A DNA stretch of 64,000 bases. Source: Halolamina sp. CBA1230. GTDB taxonomy: Archaea; Halobacteriota; Halobacteria; Halobacteriales; Haloferacaceae. A program made the translations under genes and the position numbers. The notes beneath the pieces are model-generated. The model searched no databases. It was given only the letters and a program-made list of their open reading frames with translations, and was not told the origin of the DNA. Positions within the stretch are counted from its first letter, which is position 1. Every line of letters starts with the position of its first letter. Of this stretch, positions 12,410 to 19,721 are shown one piece after another. The stretch is taken from positions 620,001 to 684,000 of the forward strand of contig NZ_CP054587.1 of NCBI RefSeq assembly GCF_002025255.2, in the 5' to 3' direction.

Positions 12410-14428
12410 CTAGTCGGCCGGCTCCACGATCAGTCGTGAGCGCATCTCCAGGTGGAGTGCGCTGCAGAAGTACGTACAGTACACCCAGTACACCCCGGGC
12501 TCGTCGGCGGTGAACGTCACCTGCCGCGTGTCCTGGGGCGCGAGCGCGAGGTTGACGTCGTACTCGGGGATCGCCATCCCGTGGACCAGGTCCTGGCTCC
12601 CCTCGATGTTGGTGACGGTCATCCGCACCTCGTCGCCCTCCTGCACCGTGATCTCGCGCAGGCCGTACTCGCTGCGCTTGACCGAGGCGTACACCTCAAC
12701 GGTCGAGTCGTCGACGCGCTCGATCCGAGAGCTCTCGGTGGTGACGAACTCCGCGTCGTAGTCGTCGGGGTTCCAGGTCCGCGCCGGCTCGATCTTCTCC
12801 TTGTGGGCGAAGATGGCGTCGTGGGGCTCGGGGTAGACGGGGTGGTCCGCGACCAGCTCCATCCCGCCGGTCTCGTCGTCCGCGTCGTTCCCGATATAGA
12901 TCAGCTGGTCGTTGTCGGGGAACACCGGCCCGACCGGGAGGAAGCGGTCCTTCGAGAGCTTGTTGAGCGAGACCAGCCAGTTGCCGGCCGGCTCGGTCGA
13001 CATCGCCTGGACCGCCTGGATGTGGCCGGGGTTGTAGTGGACGTCGATCTTGCCGAGGATCGGCTCCTCGGACCCTTTCTCGGCGTTCACCGCGGCCTCG
13101 ATATCCCACTTCACGACCTGCGAGTCGATGAACAGCGACGTGTACGCGTGTCCGCGGTCGTCGTAGGTGGTGTGCAGCGGCCCGAGCCCGACCTTGGGCT
13201 GGCCGACGATCGTGTCCGCGGGGTCGTCGGCGGTCGCCAGCTTCTCGATGTCGATGATCGACACCGTCGGCGAGAGCTTCCCGGCGACCATCCCGTAGTT
13301 GCCGTCGGGCGTCACCTCGACGCAGTGGGGCGACTTCGGCGTCGGGATGTAGCGCACGATCGGGTCGTCGCCCGCGTTGTGCGGGCTCTCCTTCCGGCCG
13401 TCGACGACGGGGACGCCGTTGACCTCCTCGTACTCGCCGGCGTCGACGAGCTCCTGGATCGCGGGCACGTCGAACGCCTTCACGTCGTCCCGGTCGTCCC
13501 GGGTCATCTCCTCGATCTCGACGCCCTCCTCGTCGTTGTACGCCGAGGCGAGCACCCAGCGGCCGTCCTTGTCGGAGTCGACGATGTCGAGCTGGCCGTC
13601 GACCTCGACCTGCCACAGCACGTCCATGCTGTCGGGGTCGATAGCGGTGAACACCGAGACGTACTCCTCGGGGCTGTTCACGTCCCGGCCGTCGTTGGGG
13701 ATCGGCGTCCGGAACTCGCTGTTGGCGAACACGTACCCCGTGTCCGGGCTCTGGATGCAGCAGCCGTGGACCGACTGGACGTTCGGCACGTCGACGATCG
13801 CGTCGGTCTCGAAGTACGTGAGGTTCACCCGCGCGACCCGGCCGTTAGCCTTGTCGTTGACGAAGATGTACTCGCCGTCGTACTTCCCGTCGGTCTCCGA
13901 GAGGTTCGGGTGGTGGGAGTCACCCCACGTGTAGCCGCCGGCCTCCTCCAGCATCTCACTGGTGCGGTCGTCGAACCCGTACCCCTTCGCACCCTCGCGG
14001 TTGAACACCGGGATCCGGGTGAGCTGGCGCATCGACGGGATGCCGTACACCCGGATGTCGCCCGCGTGGCCGCCCGACCAGAACCCGTAGTACTCGTCTT
14101 TCTCGCCCGGCGGCACCTTGTGGTCGGGCACCTCGCCGTCGCCGCTCTGGGTGTCCGTGTTCGAGTTGTTCCCGAACGCGCCCGTCCCCGCACAGCCCGC
14201 GAGGCCGCCGACGGCGCCGACGGCCGCGCCCGCCTTCATCACGTCGCGGCGGCTGACGTCGCCGCCCAGCGAGGGGAGCGTCGGCTCCGGATCGGGCGCC
14301 TCTGTCCCCTCGACCTCGGCGAGCAGTTCGTCCAGCTGCCGTTCGTGCTCCGCGAACAGCTCCGCCTCGCTCTTCCGTTCGGTCTCGCCCCCTTCGACCG
14401 TCTCCTCGGCGGTGTCGTCTGTGCTCAT
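12410..14428 (-). CDS. nosZ: Nitrous-oxide reductase (Tat-exported)
   Basis: 672 residues; reduces N2O to N2 outside the membrane. A twin-arginine motif SRRDVMKAG sits unusually late (about residue 59), followed by a hydrophobic stretch and a lipobox-like LAGCAG. The seven-bladed propeller carries CuZ ligands, such as the GDSHHP histidines near residue 170. The C-terminal cupredoxin domain has the CuA motif CTYFCSALHLEM (C651, C655, H659, M662). The pre-Tat segment of about 58 residues is acidic. It follows the halocyanin gene with a 1-nt gap. Confidence 0.96.
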   Translation of the reverse strand: MSTDDTAEETVEGGETERKSEAELFAEHERQLDELLAEVEGTEAPDPEPTLPSLGGDVSRRDVMKAGAAVGAVGGLAGCAGTGAFGNNSNTDTQSGDGEVPDHKVPPGEKDEYYGFWSGGHAGDIRVYGIPSMRQLTRIPVFNREGAKGYGFDDRTSEMLEEAGGYTWGDSHHPNLSETDGKYDGEYIFVNDKANGRVARVNLTYFETDAIVDVPNVQSVHGCCIQSPDTGYVFANSEFRTPIPNDGRDVNSPEEYVSVFTAIDPDSMDVLWQVEVDGQLDIVDSDKDGRWVLASAYNDEEGVEIEEMTRDDRDDVKAFDVPAIQELVDAGEYEEVNGVPVVDGRKESPHNAGDDPIVRYIPTPKSPHCVEVTPDGNYGMVAGKLSPTVSIIDIEKLATADDPADTIVGQPKVGLGPLHTTYDDRGHAYTSLFIDSQVVKWDIEAAVNAEKGSEEPILGKIDVHYNPGHIQAVQAMSTEPAGNWLVSLNKLSKDRFLPVGPVFPDNDQLIYIGNDADDETGGMELVADHPVYPEPHDAIFAHKEKIEPARTWNPDDYDAEFVTTESSRIERVDDSTVEVYASVKRSEYGLREITVQEGDEVRMTVTNIEGSQDLVHGMAIPEYDVNLALAPQDTRQVTFTADEPGVYWVYCTYFCSALHLEMRSRLIVEPAD

Positions 14429-14429
14429 A

Positions 14430-14921
14430 TCAAACCACCCGGACGTAGCCGACCATCCCGTTCATCTCGTGGGGGATGCAGTAGTACTCGTACTCCCCTG
14501 TCGTCTCGAACGTGTGTTCGTACGTCCCGCCCTCGGTGACGTTCCCCTCGTCGGGGTAGCCGTCCGCTGCCGCCTGCTGGCTGTCGAACCCGCCCGACGC
14601 GAAGTACTCAGCGCCGTCGGGGATGTTCTCCTCGTAGGCGGTGATCGAGTGTCCGATCGTGCCGACGTTCTCCCAGGTGACCGTCGTGCCGGCCTCCACC
14701 TCGATCCGCTTGGGCGCGAACGTCAGGTCGTCGGTCATCTCCACGGTGCTCGTCCCTTCCCACGATTCGCCACTGCCGCCGTCGGAGCCGCCGGATTCGG
14801 TCGGGGACTCCGTGGGGGAGTCGGTGCTGGCCCCGCCGGAGCCACAGCCGGCGAGCCCGAGCCCGACTCCCGTCGACGCCAGTGCGACCAGGTATCGTCG
14901 GCGCGTCGTGTCCTGACTCAT
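14430..14921 (-). CDS. Halocyanin-type blue copper protein, probable electron donor to NosZ
   Basis: 163 residues: Tat-type signal (TRRRYLVALA) with lipobox LAGC, a Ser/Thr/Gly/Glu-rich linker, and one cupredoxin domain. Copper ligands visible are the His of GHSI (about 93), C148 and H151 of CIPHEM, and M156. Halocyanins are membrane-anchored electron carriers. As the first gene of the nos operon this one probably feeds NosZ CuA. Predicted transcript start at about 14954 leaves a 33-nt leader. Confidence 0.92.
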   Translation of the reverse strand: MSQDTTRRRYLVALASTGVGLGLAGCGSGGASTDSPTESPTESGGSDGGSGESWEGTSTVEMTDDLTFAPKRIEVEAGTTVTWENVGTIGHSITAYEENIPDGAEYFASGGFDSQQAAADGYPDEGNVTEGGTYEHTFETTGEYEYYCIPHEMNGMVGYVRVV

Positions 14922-14991
14922 GGTCCTACAGGTCGGCGTTCGGGGTCACACCATTAGAACCGTCAAGCGCGTTCCCACCGGATCGGAACTT

Positions 14992-15005
14992 CCGAACACG
15001 TTCGC
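14992..15005 (-). promoter_or_regulatory. Dyad box of the nos operon
   Basis: CCGAACACGTTCGC lies 71 bp from the halocyanin ATG, but exactly 38 bp from the ATG of a two-codon frame (ATG GTG TGA, 14954-14946). Applying the distance seen at leaderless genes in this island places the transcript start at about 14954. Confidence 0.7.
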
Positions 15006-15053
15006 GTCGGGGTTTATCCGTGTCTTCGGGGCGAACGCGGGGCGCCTTCAGTT

Positions 15054-15066
15054 CCGACACGTTCGG
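15054..15066. promoter_or_regulatory. Degenerate second dyad box upstream of the nos operon
   Basis: CCGACACGTTCGG lacks one A of the consensus. It lies about 60 bp upstream of the main box; a secondary or decayed site. Confidence 0.4.
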
Positions 15067-15144
15067 CAGAAACGAACTCACGACCCCGAGAGTCGCCACA
15101 GATCACCGCTCGCGCGCGGTCGACGGTGCCCCGCGCGGGCGCTC

Positions 15145-15804
15145 CTACCCCTCGATGACCGGCCGGGGCTCCGCCTCCAGCCCGGCGGCGAACTGCTTCA
15201 TCACGCGCTCCTCGGCGCGGTGGAGCGTCTCGCTGACCGTCGACTTCGCCAGTCCCACGGCGTCGGCAAGCTGGGTCAGCGAGCACTCGCGGGGCGTGTC
15301 GTAGTACCCCCGGTCGATCGCCTCGCGAACGATCGTCCGCTGGCGGTCGGTCAGCAGCGCCTCGGAGCCGCCGACCTCCTGCTGGAGGTAGTCGACGGTG
15401 AAGGAGACCCCCAGCGCCGAGAGCTGGTCGCCAAGCTCCGAGATGGCGTCCTGTGAGGCGGTCAGCGTCCACGTCGCCTCGCCGTCGCTGATCTCGAACG
15501 GCATCTCCAGCGGGAGCCCCGAGTCACGGGCCGCCAGCAACAGCAGCGGGAGGTGGGTCCGGAACTGCACCAGACACTCCCGGTCGCCGCGCTGGAGCAC
15601 CTCGACGTCGTCGACGGAGTCGTGGGCGCGCACGTCGGCGACGACCGACTCGGGGTCGCGGGCGCCGATCTCCGCCAGCCCCACCCCGCCGTCGGCCTCG
15701 GTCATCGCCGCCAGGATCCTGATCGTCGCGTCGTCGTGGGCACGGGTGATCTCTCCGGGCCAGGTCCGCTCCGGGATCGTGAGCGTGAGTTTCGCTTCGG
15801 GCAT
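15145..15804 (-). CDS. HTH-10 (Bat/DmsR/NarO-like) transcriptional regulator
   Basis: 219 residues. Residues about 1-150 form a variable sensor part; residues about 158-212 are the HTH-10 domain (LTDRQRTIVREAIDRGYYDTPRECSLTQLADAVGLAKSTVSETLHRAEE). Related haloarchaeal regulators control anaerobic respiration. This protein lacks the Cys-rich N-terminus I recall for NarO and is more DmsR-like. The start at ATG 15804 is chosen over a longer frame running through the promoter box. A perfect dyad box lies 44 bp away, so it may be controlled by the same regulator or by itself. It is the best candidate in the window for binding the boxes. Confidence 0.85.
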   Translation of the reverse strand: MPEAKLTLTIPERTWPGEITRAHDDATIRILAAMTEADGGVGLAEIGARDPESVVADVRAHDSVDDVEVLQRGDRECLVQFRTHLPLLLLAARDSGLPLEMPFEISDGEATWTLTASQDAISELGDQLSALGVSFTVDYLQQEVGGSEALLTDRQRTIVREAIDRGYYDTPRECSLTQLADAVGLAKSTVSETLHRAEERVMKQFAAGLEAEPRPVIEG

Positions 15805-15847
15805 GGCTCTACCTGTGCGTTGCCCGGGGATAACCCAGTCGATACTC

Positions 15848-15861
15848 CCGAACATGTTCGG
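15848..15861 (-). promoter_or_regulatory. Dyad box before the HTH-10 regulator
   Basis: CCGAACATGTTCGG, extended to an 8-bp-arm palindrome (15847-15862), is the most symmetric box in the window. It lies 44 bp from the regulator ATG at 15804, implying a short leader of about 6 nt. Confidence 0.75.
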
Positions 15862-15897
15862 GAATCTCGTTGCGGCCGGCGATCGGCGCCGCGACCG

Positions 15898-15911
15898 CCG
15901 ACCATGTTCGG
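15898..15911 (+). promoter_or_regulatory. Dyad box before DUF2249 copy 2
   Basis: CCGACCATGTTCGG has one mismatch to the consensus and lies 37 bp from the ATG at 15948. Confidence 0.65.
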
Positions 15912-15947
15912 CACAACTGCCACCTCGACACGGCGGGATGTCGGGGT

Positions 15948-16163
15948 ATGGCCGACAGACGACTCGACGCTCGCGAGATCGACGGCGAACCGTTCGGCCG
16001 GATCGTCGGCGAACTGGAGACGCTCGGGGAGACCGAACGGCTCGTGCTGGTCAACAGCTTCGAGCCCGAACCGCTGTACGGCGTCCTCGATCGGCGCGGG
16101 TTCGAGCACGAGACCGAACAGGTCGCGGAAAACGAGTGGCGCGTCGTGATCGAACACGCCTGA
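15948..16163 (+). CDS. DUF2249 (TusA-like) protein, copy 2
   Basis: 71 residues: LDAREIDGEPFGRIVGELETLGETERLVLVNSFEPEPLYGVLDRRGFEHETEQ is a full DUF2249 domain with NSFEPEPLY in place of NDHEPKPLF. The basic RHP stretch of copy 1 is absent, so function may differ. Its stop is one nucleotide from that of the convergent copy 3. It has its own dyad box. Confidence 0.85.
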   Translation: MADRRLDAREIDGEPFGRIVGELETLGETERLVLVNSFEPEPLYGVLDRRGFEHETEQVAENEWRVVIEHA

Positions 16164-16164
16164 G

Positions 16165-16437
16165 CTACGCCGGCCAGATCGCGGTGATCGCGGCGTCGCC
16201 GTCCGCGACGGTCTCGTACTCGTACCCCCGGTCCTCGAGCCGCGGGTAGAGATGCTGCGGCCGGCGGTCGTTCGTCTGGACCAACACGGTCTCCTCGTCG
16301 AGTTCGGCCAGCCGTTCGAGTGTCTCTCGGAGGGGTTTCGGCGGCGGGAGGTCGCGGGCGTCGAGGTGGACCTGTTCGTGGCCGACGGGCGCGTCGTCGA
16401 AGCGGTCGTCGAGATCGGGTCGTTCGTCGGCGGCCAT
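16165..16437 (-). CDS. DUF2249 (TusA-like) protein, copy 3
   Basis: 90 residues: an acidic N-terminus of about 22 residues, then LDARDLPPPKPLRETLERLAELDEETVLVQTNDRRPQHLYPRLEDRGYEYET. The PP and TNDRRPQHLY motifs mark DUF2249. The box at 16475-16488 is exactly 38 bp from its ATG. Convergent with copy 2. Confidence 0.85.
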   Translation of the reverse strand: MAADERPDLDDRFDDAPVGHEQVHLDARDLPPPKPLRETLERLAELDEETVLVQTNDRRPQHLYPRLEDRGYEYETVADGDAAITAIWPA

Positions 16438-16537: not shown

Positions 16538-18634
16538 TCAGAACGCCGACAACGACCCGTTCACGCGTTCGGACAACTGCTCCTCGATCTCCTCTCGACG
16601 GAACCCCGCAGGTGCCAGCACCGACTCGGCAGCGCGGCACAGTCGGTCGCGGTAGAACGCGATGTCGTAGCGGTCGGGGTTCTCGTGGAGGAGCGCGACG
16701 CGTGCCCGCCCCGATTTCTCGTCGTCGACGACGACGTACTCGACGGTTTGCCCGGGGTGTTTCTCTAGACCGAGGTCGGCCGCCCGCTCCAGCGCAGCGA
16801 CGTTTTTCGTCGTCTGGGTGTACTCCTCGACGCGCTTCGAGACGCGGTTGGTGATCGCCAGTCGGGCCGGGTCGACGTCGCCCGATCGTAGATCGCGAAC
16901 GAACTCCCGCAGGCTTTCACAGACCGCCTCCGGCGAGCGCGTGCGGCCGAACTCCCGGATCAGTTCGAGTTGGGCGTCCTCGACGAACGGCGGCGTCGAT
17001 CGCTGCCGGGCCTCGATCCCGCGGCGTTTGTAGCTCGATTCGTCGTCGACAGGGTCGCCCGCTCGTTTCCCGAAGTAGCGCGTGAGCGCGCCGGCGCCGT
17101 CGTCGCGCCGGGGACAGAACGCGAGCCAGTCGTAGGCGGCCTCGTACTCCAGCCTGATCCCCGCGTCGTCGGTGATCTCCCGGGCGACGGTTTCGAGGTC
17201 GGTCCCCTCGCGGTCGGGCATCGGTGTCACCCACAGCGAGTCGACGATGCCGTGGACGACGCGCCAGCCGTGGTGCTCGAGCGTCGCCTTGGCGTCGAGC
17301 AGGATCTCCCGCGCGAACGCGTTGATGGCCTCGTGGCACTCGATCCGGCCGAACTTCGCGTTCGAGAACCCCTGGTAGCCGAAACAGGAGACGAGGATCC
17401 ACTTGATCGCCGCCGCGGCGCCCTCGCGGCCGTCGTCGCCTCGACCGAGTCGACGCTTGAACTCGTCGCGGTCGTCGATCAACGGCTGGAGCACGTCCGG
17501 GAGGTAGCCGTCGTCGGGGCAGATGCCGTACCCCAGCTCCGGCACGTCCTCGCGTTCGGGGTGGCAGTCACAGCAGACGGTCTCGGGCGAGATGTTCCTC
17601 GTACACATGATGTTGGGGTAGAGGCTCGAGAAGTCGAGTTCGTGGACGTTCTCGTGGACGCCGACGTCCGGCGATAACGTGAAGCCGCCGCGGTCGGCCG
17701 TCTCGAGCGTGCTGGCGGGCTTGAACCGCTCGGCCCGCCACGAGCGCCAGGGGACGAGCACGTCGCGGGACAGCGCCTCGCGGATCTGGATCGCGGTGAG
17801 CACGTTGCCGATGCTCGCCCACGCCGCTTCCTGCAGGGGTTTGTGCGAGCGCTCCACGAGATAGCGGACCCCGTCGAGGTCGGTCTCCCGCAGGAAGAAG
17901 GAGTTCGAGGCGTCGACGATCGGCCGCCCCGGAACCGCGTACCGCGCCGGCGAGTGGCCGACCGTCCCGTAGCTCTCGTACGTGCTCGCGGCTGCGAGCT
18001 GAGTGTATCCGGGTTCGCGACCGAGTCGGAGATCCTCCTCGACCGCGTCGAACAGTTCGGGGAGTAGCTCCGCCGTCGAGACGCGCAACACGTCCGGCTC
18101 CGTCCTCCGGATCAGCGACTCCACGTCGCGGGCGATATCGGCCGGCGCGTCCGCGAAGGCGTGTGTCTCACCGCTCGGCGTCGTCGCGGTCACGGACTCC
18201 AGTCCCGAACCGGCGATCGGCGGCGCCGCGAGTTCCAGCACGGTCGGATCGCGCGTCGGCGTCGGCTCGGTCCCCGTCTCGACGCAGTAGCGGAACTGCC
18301 GGGAGAGGTCGACGTTGAAGCAGCGATAGGTGCCGGGCCGGCCGACCTTCGTGATCGTCGACGCCAGCCGGGAGACGGCGTCGGGTGTCGTCATCTCGAC
18401 GGCGAGCATCTCCGTCGCGTCGTGGCGCCAGCCGGGGCGGTGGTGCTCGCGCTCGACCGCCGCCACCTCGGGATGCGGGCGAACGGCGTCGGCGACCTCC
18501 GCGAGCGAGCCGTCCGCGGTCGCGCGGACGTAGAACCGCGGGCGGTAGGGCCGCTCCTCGCGTTCGACGCCCGCGTCGGTCAGCGACCACTCCACGGCCG
18601 TCTCGGGTTCGGGGAAGTCGATGCAGTAGGTCAT
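16538..18634 (-). CDS. polB2: B-family DNA polymerase, PolB2 type with altered catalytic motif
   Basis: 698 residues. Motif A is intact (LDFSSLYPNI, Asp at residue 334) and motif B keeps its Lys (AIKWILVSCFGY). Motif C, usually YGDTDS, reads HGIVDS (residues 461-466), so the first catalytic Asp is Ile. The exonuclease DxE motif is not recognisable (LAVEMTT at its expected place). PolB2 proteins are a known archaeal group with eroded active sites. A structural or translesion role is more likely than replicative synthesis. It starts at ATG 18634, overlapping the small upstream gene by 4 bp. Confidence 0.9.
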   Translation of the reverse strand: MTYCIDFPEPETAVEWSLTDAGVEREERPYRPRFYVRATADGSLAEVADAVRPHPEVAAVEREHHRPGWRHDATEMLAVEMTTPDAVSRLASTITKVGRPGTYRCFNVDLSRQFRYCVETGTEPTPTRDPTVLELAAPPIAGSGLESVTATTPSGETHAFADAPADIARDVESLIRRTEPDVLRVSTAELLPELFDAVEEDLRLGREPGYTQLAAASTYESYGTVGHSPARYAVPGRPIVDASNSFFLRETDLDGVRYLVERSHKPLQEAAWASIGNVLTAIQIREALSRDVLVPWRSWRAERFKPASTLETADRGGFTLSPDVGVHENVHELDFSSLYPNIMCTRNISPETVCCDCHPEREDVPELGYGICPDDGYLPDVLQPLIDDRDEFKRRLGRGDDGREGAAAAIKWILVSCFGYQGFSNAKFGRIECHEAINAFAREILLDAKATLEHHGWRVVHGIVDSLWVTPMPDREGTDLETVAREITDDAGIRLEYEAAYDWLAFCPRRDDGAGALTRYFGKRAGDPVDDESSYKRRGIEARQRSTPPFVEDAQLELIREFGRTRSPEAVCESLREFVRDLRSGDVDPARLAITNRVSKRVEEYTQTTKNVAALERAADLGLEKHPGQTVEYVVVDDEKSGRARVALLHENPDRYDIAFYRDRLCRAAESVLAPAGFRREEIEEQLSERVNGSLSAF

Positions 18635-18876
18635 TCTCCCAACTCGGCTTCGAGCGCGGCGATCCGGCGCTCCTGGGCGAGCAGGACCGAGACGAGCACG
18701 AGATCCAGCGTGCGCTCCCGGTTCTGGTACCCTGCCGCGTCGGCGTAGTCGGCGGCGTGCTCCCAGAGCCGGTCGAAGTGCTCCTGGTCGCGGCGGCGCA
18801 GCGCCCGGCGGTAATCGCCCCACTGCGACTCCAGATGGCGCAGGCTGTCGCGGTGCGTGGGGTTAGACCGCCCCAC
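18631..18876 (-). CDS. Small helical protein linked to PolB2
   Basis: 81 residues, highly charged and mostly helical: SLRHLESQWGDYRRALRRRDQEHFDRLWEHAADYADAAGYQNRERTLDLVLVSVLLAQERRIAALEAELGE, ending in a coiled-coil-like segment. It overlaps the RecA-like gene by 14 bp and polB2 by 4 bp, so the three are one translational unit. No known motif; it may bridge the RecA-like protein and the polymerase. Confidence 0.8.
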   Translation of the reverse strand: MGRSNPTHRDSLRHLESQWGDYRRALRRRDQEHFDRLWEHAADYADAAGYQNRERTLDLVLVSVLLAQERRIAALEAELGE

Positions 18877-19555
18877 TGGCGAACACCTCCCCGGGGAGGG
18901 TGGCCGTGTCGTGGAGCGGCTGGCGCGCCTCGAGCACCTGCTGCCAGAACGCGAGGGTGGTCTGCACCCAGCCGTCCTCGCGTTCGTACACCAGCGTCTC
19001 GAACCCGTCGCCCTCGAATCGCGGCCCCATCTCGGTGTCCCGGACGGTCAGCGTCGACGATGCCGCGGCCGCGACGGGGTCGCTGAACGCGTCCGCCCGC
19101 GAGCGAGTACAGAGGACTGGAAGCTCGTACTCGCGGGCAACGGCGGCGACCTGCGCCAGCGCCCGAACGAGCAGCTCCCGGCCGTCGGTGCCCTGCACGT
19201 CGTCGCCGCGGTACTGCGCGTCGATATCGGGCAGGACGATCACCGCGGTGTCGCCGTCGACGTGGGCCGCGAGGTCGTCGAGCAGCGCGGTGTGCTGGTA
19301 CGGCGTGAACCCGCGGGCGACGTCGACGCGGTCCAGTACGCGCCGGTCGGGCGCGATCTCGGCCAGCGTCTCGGTGGTGCAGTAGCGCCCGGTGCCGACC
19401 CAGACGCCACGCCCGCACTCCAGCAGCACGCGGTCGACCAGCAGCGTCTGCAGCGGGAGTCGCGGGTCGCCGTCGGTCTCGAGCAGCGTGATCCCGCTGT
19501 CGAGCGTGGGCAGGTCGGGAATGGTGAGTGTTTGGCTGTCAGTTTGGGTGGGCAT
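18863..19555 (-). CDS. RecA/RadA-superfamily protein without a P-loop, PolB2 cluster
   Basis: 230 residues. Order of elements resembles a RecA/KaiC core. A Walker A position reads GDPRLPLQTLL instead of GxxxxGKT. A strand-aspartate segment AVIVLPDIDAQYRGDD sits at the Walker B position. RELLVRALAQVAAVAREYELPVLCTRSRA matches the sensor-like helix-strand of RadA paralogues. ATP hydrolysis is therefore doubtful. Together with the eroded polymerase this looks like an archaeal counterpart of the ImuA-type partner of bacterial mutagenic polymerases (inference). Starts at ATG 19555. Confidence 0.7.
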   Translation of the reverse strand: MPTQTDSQTLTIPDLPTLDSGITLLETDGDPRLPLQTLLVDRVLLECGRGVWVGTGRYCTTETLAEIAPDRRVLDRVDVARGFTPYQHTALLDDLAAHVDGDTAVIVLPDIDAQYRGDDVQGTDGRELLVRALAQVAAVAREYELPVLCTRSRADAFSDPVAAAASSTLTVRDTEMGPRFEGDGFETLVYEREDGWVQTTLAFWQQVLEARQPLHDTATLPGEVFASGAV

Positions 19556-19721
19556 GCTTCTCCGTTCTCGGACTGGCGGCATGAGTGTCGGCCGAGGGGT
19601 TCCGGAGGGTTCCGGGTGTGGAGGAATCAGGGGAGGGGAGTGGAGTTGGGAGTTTCCGGTGGGTGTTCCGGGGAGTGTGCGGCGGCGGGCGACGAGCGAG
19701 CACGCGTCACCACTTTTCGTT

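Follow-up and report, generated by a model that had tools for sequence, protein, structure and literature searches.

A tandem CGGAA promoter element common to the PolB2 mutasome operon and an Orc1/Cdc6 paralog in haloarchaea

Introduction

Three overlapping minus-strand genes in a 64,000-nt window of Halolamina sp. CBA1230 (NZ_CP054587.1, 620,001-684,000; coordinates below are window positions unless a replicon is named) raise the question of what complex they encode and how its production may be controlled. The genes form an operon (16538-19555) for iRadA, a RadA/Rad51-like protein without a P-loop, PPB2, a small helical protein, and PolB2, a B-family polymerase. The first-pass annotation of this DNA had proposed a three-part archaeal mutasome with a P-loop-less RecA-like part, a proposal that is supported by families, gene order, and profile matches; its novelty is lost, since both operon and complex are already in the literature. 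The trio arCOG07300/arCOG07763/PolB2, the same three families as in the window, was reported as a predicted operon, haloarchaea included, with an orc neighbor noted (Makarova 2014, PMC4104785), and the PolB2 mutasome, composed of PolB2, iRadA, and a PPB2 trimer, was named and modeled by Timinskas 2025 (PMC11791011). The window trio is thus a haloarchaeal copy of the published mutasome, and the new part is a regulatory link, predicted from promoter sequences, between the mutasome and an Orc1/Cdc6 paralog.

To our knowledge, no regulator has been identified for the DNA-damage response of haloarchaea; a search of the open-licence literature gave nothing beyond an unassigned ultraviolet-B (UV-B) motif. 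The promoter element described below suggests how salt-loving archaea may turn the mutasome on: an exactly spaced short operator at the mutasome and at one Orc family would offer a named protein and a named DNA site in genetically tractable organisms. Archaeal orc1/cdc6 genes are enriched near polB2 (PMC11791011), a recurrence so far read as a replication link, for which the proposed control, if true, would supply a regulatory reason.

The promoter element and its distribution

The iRadA start codon (ATG, 19555, minus strand) is preceded by a TATA-like box, TCAT (19581-19584), from which the ATG begins 26 nt on, and the box in turn lies 15 nt after the proximal CGGAA half of a predicted operator (19600-19604), whose distal CGGAA half (19610-19614) is set off by a 5-bp inner spacer. 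A second CGGAA pair with a 7-bp inner spacer lies farther upstream (19654-19670), all on the minus strand, and the promoter element accordingly reaches 19614, or 19670 when that pair is counted. The architecture, CGGAA-N3-5-CGGAA-N15-T(T/C)AT, is of the leaderless type; in leaderless transcripts a TATA-like box is expected near -27, and the operon is probably transcribed leaderless from this tandem-CGGAA promoter. No report of the tandem element was found in the open-licence literature, and a promoter shared by the mutasome and an Orc-family gene appears to be undescribed; the excerpts of PMC11791011 mention orc1/cdc6 neighbors but no promoter element, and those of PMC4104785 mention no operator.

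Among 70 non-redundant operons, 24 carry CGGAA-N3-5-CGGAA upstream of iRadA on the coding strand and 2 carry it on the opposite strand; the control windows have it in 12/4588 cases. When one mismatch per half is allowed and a TATA-like box is required at 15 nt, the element is found in 33/70 operons, against 3/70 on the other strand and 39/3908 control windows; both control figures (12/4588 and 39/3908) overstate the background because the control windows include orc promoters of the same loci. A different element, TTTCACTTTCA with at most one mismatch, stands instead in 16/70 operons (0/70 on the other strand, 5/3908 control windows), and the two never occur together (0/70). The same sequence was described in 2008 as the UV-B motif of radA1, top6B, vng17, and vng280 in Halobacterium (PMC2556686), a paper from which the term polB2 is absent; it is found at other mutasome operons, whereas the window operon has the tandem CGGAA.

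Of 391 haloarchaeal genomes scanned for a strict pattern, CGGAA-N3-4-CGGAA-N14-16-TTAT, 121 contain it; the reversed pattern gave 7 matches (as counted in the table). Classification of 30 loci and 80 further stretches, which are part of the matches and to which the following counts apply, distinguished 121 sites: 48 before one Orc1/Cdc6 paralog family, 38 at the mutasome (32 before iRadA, 5 before PolB2, and 1 before PPB2), and 35 before other genes or nothing clear. The spacer to TTAT, for which 14-16 nt were allowed, is exactly 15 nt in 82/86 Orc and mutasome sites and in 20/35 others, and in 22 of the 32 iRadA sites the 26th base after the box is the first of the start codon. The Orc family is a true Orc1/Cdc6 relative: its profile matches Sulfolobus Cdc6-1 in PDB (E 2.3e-42), and the family has the Cdc6 lid domain. 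The tandem with 15-nt spacing also stands before other genes (L254, L256, L257, L269, L170, L218): tyrosine-integrase-like genes in related genomes and, as single cases, a TFB-like gene (L170) and a gene for an RNase_H_2-family protein (L218), the integrase and TFB labels being readings of the sequences.

In the genome of the window strain (3.47 Mb), a relaxed form of the element (N3-7 inner spacer, TNAT box) has three sites: the window operon, C2:166683-166716, and one inside a reading frame, at which no gene start was found. The C2 site, on another replicon, lies directly before an Orc paralog (C2:166745-167740, 333 bits to the family model); the operator is therefore common to a mutasome promoter and an Orc1/Cdc6 paralog promoter on two replicons of one genome. 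Both sites have the 5-bp inner spacer, as opposed to 3-4 bp in most other lineages. Within five congeners searched, the 5-bp form precedes that Orc in 4 and iRadA in 2; two further sites stand before another or an unclear reading frame, one site has a 16-nt spacer, and congener G190 has no site of this form. Twelve Orc matches were found in the window genome, of which three are fragments and nine were checked as loci; 7/9 are without the CGGAA tandem, which is present only upstream of two members of this paralog family, in one of them farther upstream and without the box spacing. The same genome carries a second iRadA-PPB2-PolB2 trio with its own Orc gene on C3, as well as a third, broken polB2 copy (G000 C3, L152 7148-8054).

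The co-occurrence of Orc and PolB2 was assessed in 194 genomes from the class; PolB2 is present at E 1e-60 in 123. Of these, 88 also have a strong Orc match (1e-120) and 35 do not; a further 16 genomes have Orc only, and 55 have neither (Fisher p 4e-11, a statistic that ignores relatedness). Strong Orc is found in the genomes of 30/33 operons with the tandem element, 4/16 with the UV-B motif, and 17/21 with neither; from the last figure it follows that a strong Orc alone does not bring the element along, or that the tolerance used missed degenerate sites.

The three proteins and their conservation

The overlaps of 14 bp between iRadA and PPB2 (18863-18876) and of 4 bp between PPB2 and PolB2 (18631-18634), noted in the first-pass annotation, were confirmed on the minus-strand open reading frames, as were the PolB2 motif C HGIVDS and the lack of GKT in the RecA-like protein. 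iRadA (18863-19555, minus strand, 230 aa) was defined by its open reading frame, a profile search, and a structure model. Its match to Pfam Rad51 is weak (0.0086, below cut-off), but a profile of 46 haloarchaeal sequences, the window included, matches RadA/Rad51 chains in PDB (E 5.6e-14), and the model (pLDDT 86.5) resembles RadA/DMC1 folds. Neither GKT nor GKS is present, and the protein is a RadA/Rad51 homologue without ATPase residues and without the N-terminal domain. PPB2 (18631-18876, minus strand, 81 aa, arCOG07300-type) has a GTG start, begins (V/M)GRS with the arm (M)GRSNPTHR, and is modeled as all helix; neither Pfam nor NCBIfam assigns it to a family with significance. Foldseek gave no significant match of the model in PDB, and for this reason the published sigma-factor likeness of PPB2 was not reproduced. 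PolB2 (16538-18634, minus strand, 698 aa; NCBIfam NF004418, E 3.7e-285) carries, besides motif C, an FKPA...ADRGG docking region, in which FKPA is a RadA-oligomerization-like segment and ADRGG the D(K/R) motif.

Gene set, iRadA-PPB2-PolB2 order, and P-loop loss are all shared with the mutasome of PMC11791011, as are the MGRT-type arm, the D(K/R) motif, and a motif C without the first Asp; the window PPB2 differs in its GRS arm and GTG start. Conservation was examined in 142 haloarchaeal PolB2 loci (141 rows plus the broken L152 of the window genome) after exclusion of 9 rows with partial matches, internal stops, or, in one case, a repeat copy. The gene order is kept on one strand in 118/142 loci. 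Partners could be assessed in 138 loci, as L087, L107, and L151 end at a contig edge and L152 is broken; in 20 of these the iRadA/PPB2 pair is absent beside PolB2. Such copies are scattered in the tree among near-identical intact ones, by which an ancient separation of PolB2 from its partners is rejected, and separation that is uncommon and recent does not refute the mutasome. In 11 of the 20 partner-less copies (L043, L049, L058, L064, L068, L069, L077, L085, L108, L142, L148), the tandem CGGAA element stands directly before polB2.

In the PolB2 alignment, the first Asp of motif C is replaced by I or L and the second Asp is kept in 142/142 loci; the motif B Lys is likewise conserved in 142/142, and every one of the 133 rows printed has the Asp of motif A. 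No Walker A motif occurs at the P-loop place in 119 aligned iRadA rows, two GKT matches both lying within C-terminal tails; its loss is conserved in relatives rather than decaying. Given this conservation across loci, the idea that the RadA fold or motif C is decaying was rejected. The GR[ST] arm of PPB2 is found in 118/121 rows. At the 118 partnered loci, the PolB2 docking columns hold an aromatic residue at 304 in 115, K305 in 105, A/M/V at 307 in 107, L310 and A313 in 117 each, and D314 R315 G316 G317 in 118/118; in the published model this stretch contacts iRadA and PPB2. A clamp-type motif, Q..[LIM]..[FYW], occurs in the last 35 aa of PolB2 in 5/142 and in the last 45 aa of iRadA in 67/118, where the QTTLAFW-type stretch may be part of the fold. 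Plasmid-type iRadA copies (e.g., L038, L039) have a long C-terminal tail that ends with a conserved DPLLDAW, possibly a relaxed clamp-binding motif.

Proposed control and competing explanations

Taken as a whole, the locus is likely to be the operon of an active PolB2 mutasome with a leaderless promoter, in which the Orc paralog would bind the tandem CGGAA and control the mutasome. According to this proposal, PolB2 would extend primers past lesions without proofreading, iRadA would dock on PolB2 in place of a RadA filament neighbor, and the PPB2 trimer would thread its MGR(S/T) arm between PolB2 and iRadA near DNA, the latter two steps being taken from published models. Transcription would be leaderless, with the operator 15 nt upstream of the TATA-like box, and the Orc paralog would bind that operator, control its own gene, and switch on the mutasome after DNA damage. 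A precedent is provided by Sulfolobus Orc1-2: the site it binds in its own promoter recurs in the promoters of damage genes (PMC9738581). In both cases an Orc1/Cdc6 paralog promoter shares a site with target or predicted target promoters; however, the Sulfolobus site is the DDRE motif ANTTTC, the archaeal group is different, and the haloarchaeal link is predicted from sequence comparison. Because the site here is a tandem CGGAA, the claim is likeness of logic to the Orc1-2 regulon, not membership in it. The broader form of the proposal has roughly even chances: a haloarchaeal damage switch based on a non-initiator Orc1/Cdc6 paralog, which would be autoregulated through the tandem CGGAA and would activate the mutasome in cis or in trans (here, from another replicon), with lineages lacking it using the radA1 UV-B motif. 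If true, a B-family bypass polymerase would be under Orc-type control in Sulfolobus as well as in haloarchaea, the protein family having been retained while the DNA site changed.

Several observations weigh against Orc control of the mutasome. The window box, TCAT, is a weak form; 21/70 non-redundant operons, that of congener G190 among them, have neither element at the tolerance used; at 1e-60, no Orc is matched in 17/123 PolB2 genomes; and the Orc is found without PolB2 in 39 genomes. The counts are, moreover, not independent because the genomes share ancestry. With the mutasome itself read correctly, it is possible, although rather doubtful, that another factor, such as a general stress regulator, binds the tandem CGGAA and that the Orc is merely co-regulated. 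The evidence for Orc binding is sequence sharing, a few integrase-like, RNase_H_2, and TFB-like genes have the element in front of them as well, and the 39 genomes just mentioned fit such a factor. Against this, the mutasome and one Orc family make up 86/121 classified sites among the matches listed, the operon type tracks Orc presence (30/33 vs 4/16), and the Sulfolobus Orc1-2 precedent favors the Orc itself.

A second alternative concerns the polymerase. The first-pass annotation regarded PolB2 inactivation as known and drew an analogy with a bacterial trio in which two partners are catalytically dead, and PMC4104785 similarly read PolB2 as an inactive polymerase with a repair or replication role, a label that dates to Rogozin 2008 (PMC2527604). 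That haloarchaeal PolB2 is a dead structural or regulatory subunit, as first proposed, draws on the replacement of the first motif C Asp in 142/142 loci and on the literature, in which no assay of haloarchaeal PolB2 was found. It is nevertheless unlikely, given the conservation of the Asp of motif A, the Lys of motif B, and the second Asp of motif C, and given that Sulfolobus Dpo2, also without the first motif C Asp, is a robust polymerase, as active as the replicase, that functions as an extender (PMC8764526); the label of inactivity is outdated by this comparison, and two dead partners in the trio are not supported. Dpo2 is also the source of targeted mutagenesis after damage (PMC7390963). 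The haloarchaeal PolB2 is most likely a catalytically active polymerase without proofreading, suited to extending primers beyond lesions.

It is more improbable still that the tandem CGGAA represents origin-recognition elements beside orc genes instead of promoter operators, even though orc genes often adjoin origins with repeated boxes (PMC4010727, PMC3528665). The halves are direct repeats on the coding strand only, at a fixed 15 nt from the TATA-like box and about 26 nt from the start codon; the window site precedes a mutasome without an adjacent Orc gene, and 7/9 Orc loci of the genome are without a site. A resemblance between GGAAAC and the central part of archaeal origin boxes was not used as evidence, as the excerpts of PMC4010727 and PMC3528665 do not print that sequence.

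An arrangement analogous to ImuA-ImuB-DnaE2, in which two dead partners serve some other active polymerase, shares a RecA-like part and a bypass setting with this trio (PMC12926913) but is very improbable, since an active site is certainly missing in iRadA only, the operon has no separate active polymerase, and the published modeled interaction logic resembles Pol V (PMC11791011). Homology was rejected outright, as no Y- or C-family part is present among a RadA-like protein, PPB2, and a B-family polymerase. In place of this analogue, favored in the first-pass annotation, the discussion in PMC11791011 treats Pol V (UmuC-UmuD'-RecA) as the closer one. Pol V (UmuD'2C-RecA) and ImuA-ImuB-DnaE2 likewise bind a RecA-family protein to a bypass polymerase; they use other polymerase families, whereas iRadA is a dedicated paralog without a P-loop.

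Related copies and neighboring genes

In H. volcanii, polB2 is located near a radA-like gene and is deletable (PMC7776575). The polB2 of pNRC200 in Halobacterium NRC-1 (L161 1571-6169) represents one kind of partner-less copy: upstream of it lie an IS200/IS605 transposase and only a PPB2 remnant, and the stretch read contains no iRadA. This copy is the one reported as deletable in NRC-1 (PMC1906834), and because of the missing partners that knockout may not report on the intact operon.

PolB2 matches also occur in four Leptospira phage records, one of which, KF114879.1, was examined for the trio (L160 3634-6890). Its gene order matches that of the haloarchaeal operon, with iRadA, PPB2, and PolB2 recognized at profile E-values of 2.5e-5, 7.1e-12, and 1.7e-123, respectively; motif C reads HAITDS and a DKGG motif is present, and the annotation of the record goes no further than hypothetical proteins and DNA polymerase family B.

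Beside the window operon, genes of denitrification type lie at 12410-16437, namely those for nitrous oxide reductase, a copper protein, an HTH_10 regulator, and two DUF2249 proteins, and inverted repeats of the CCGAAC-N2-GTTCGG type are found near 15850 and 16475.

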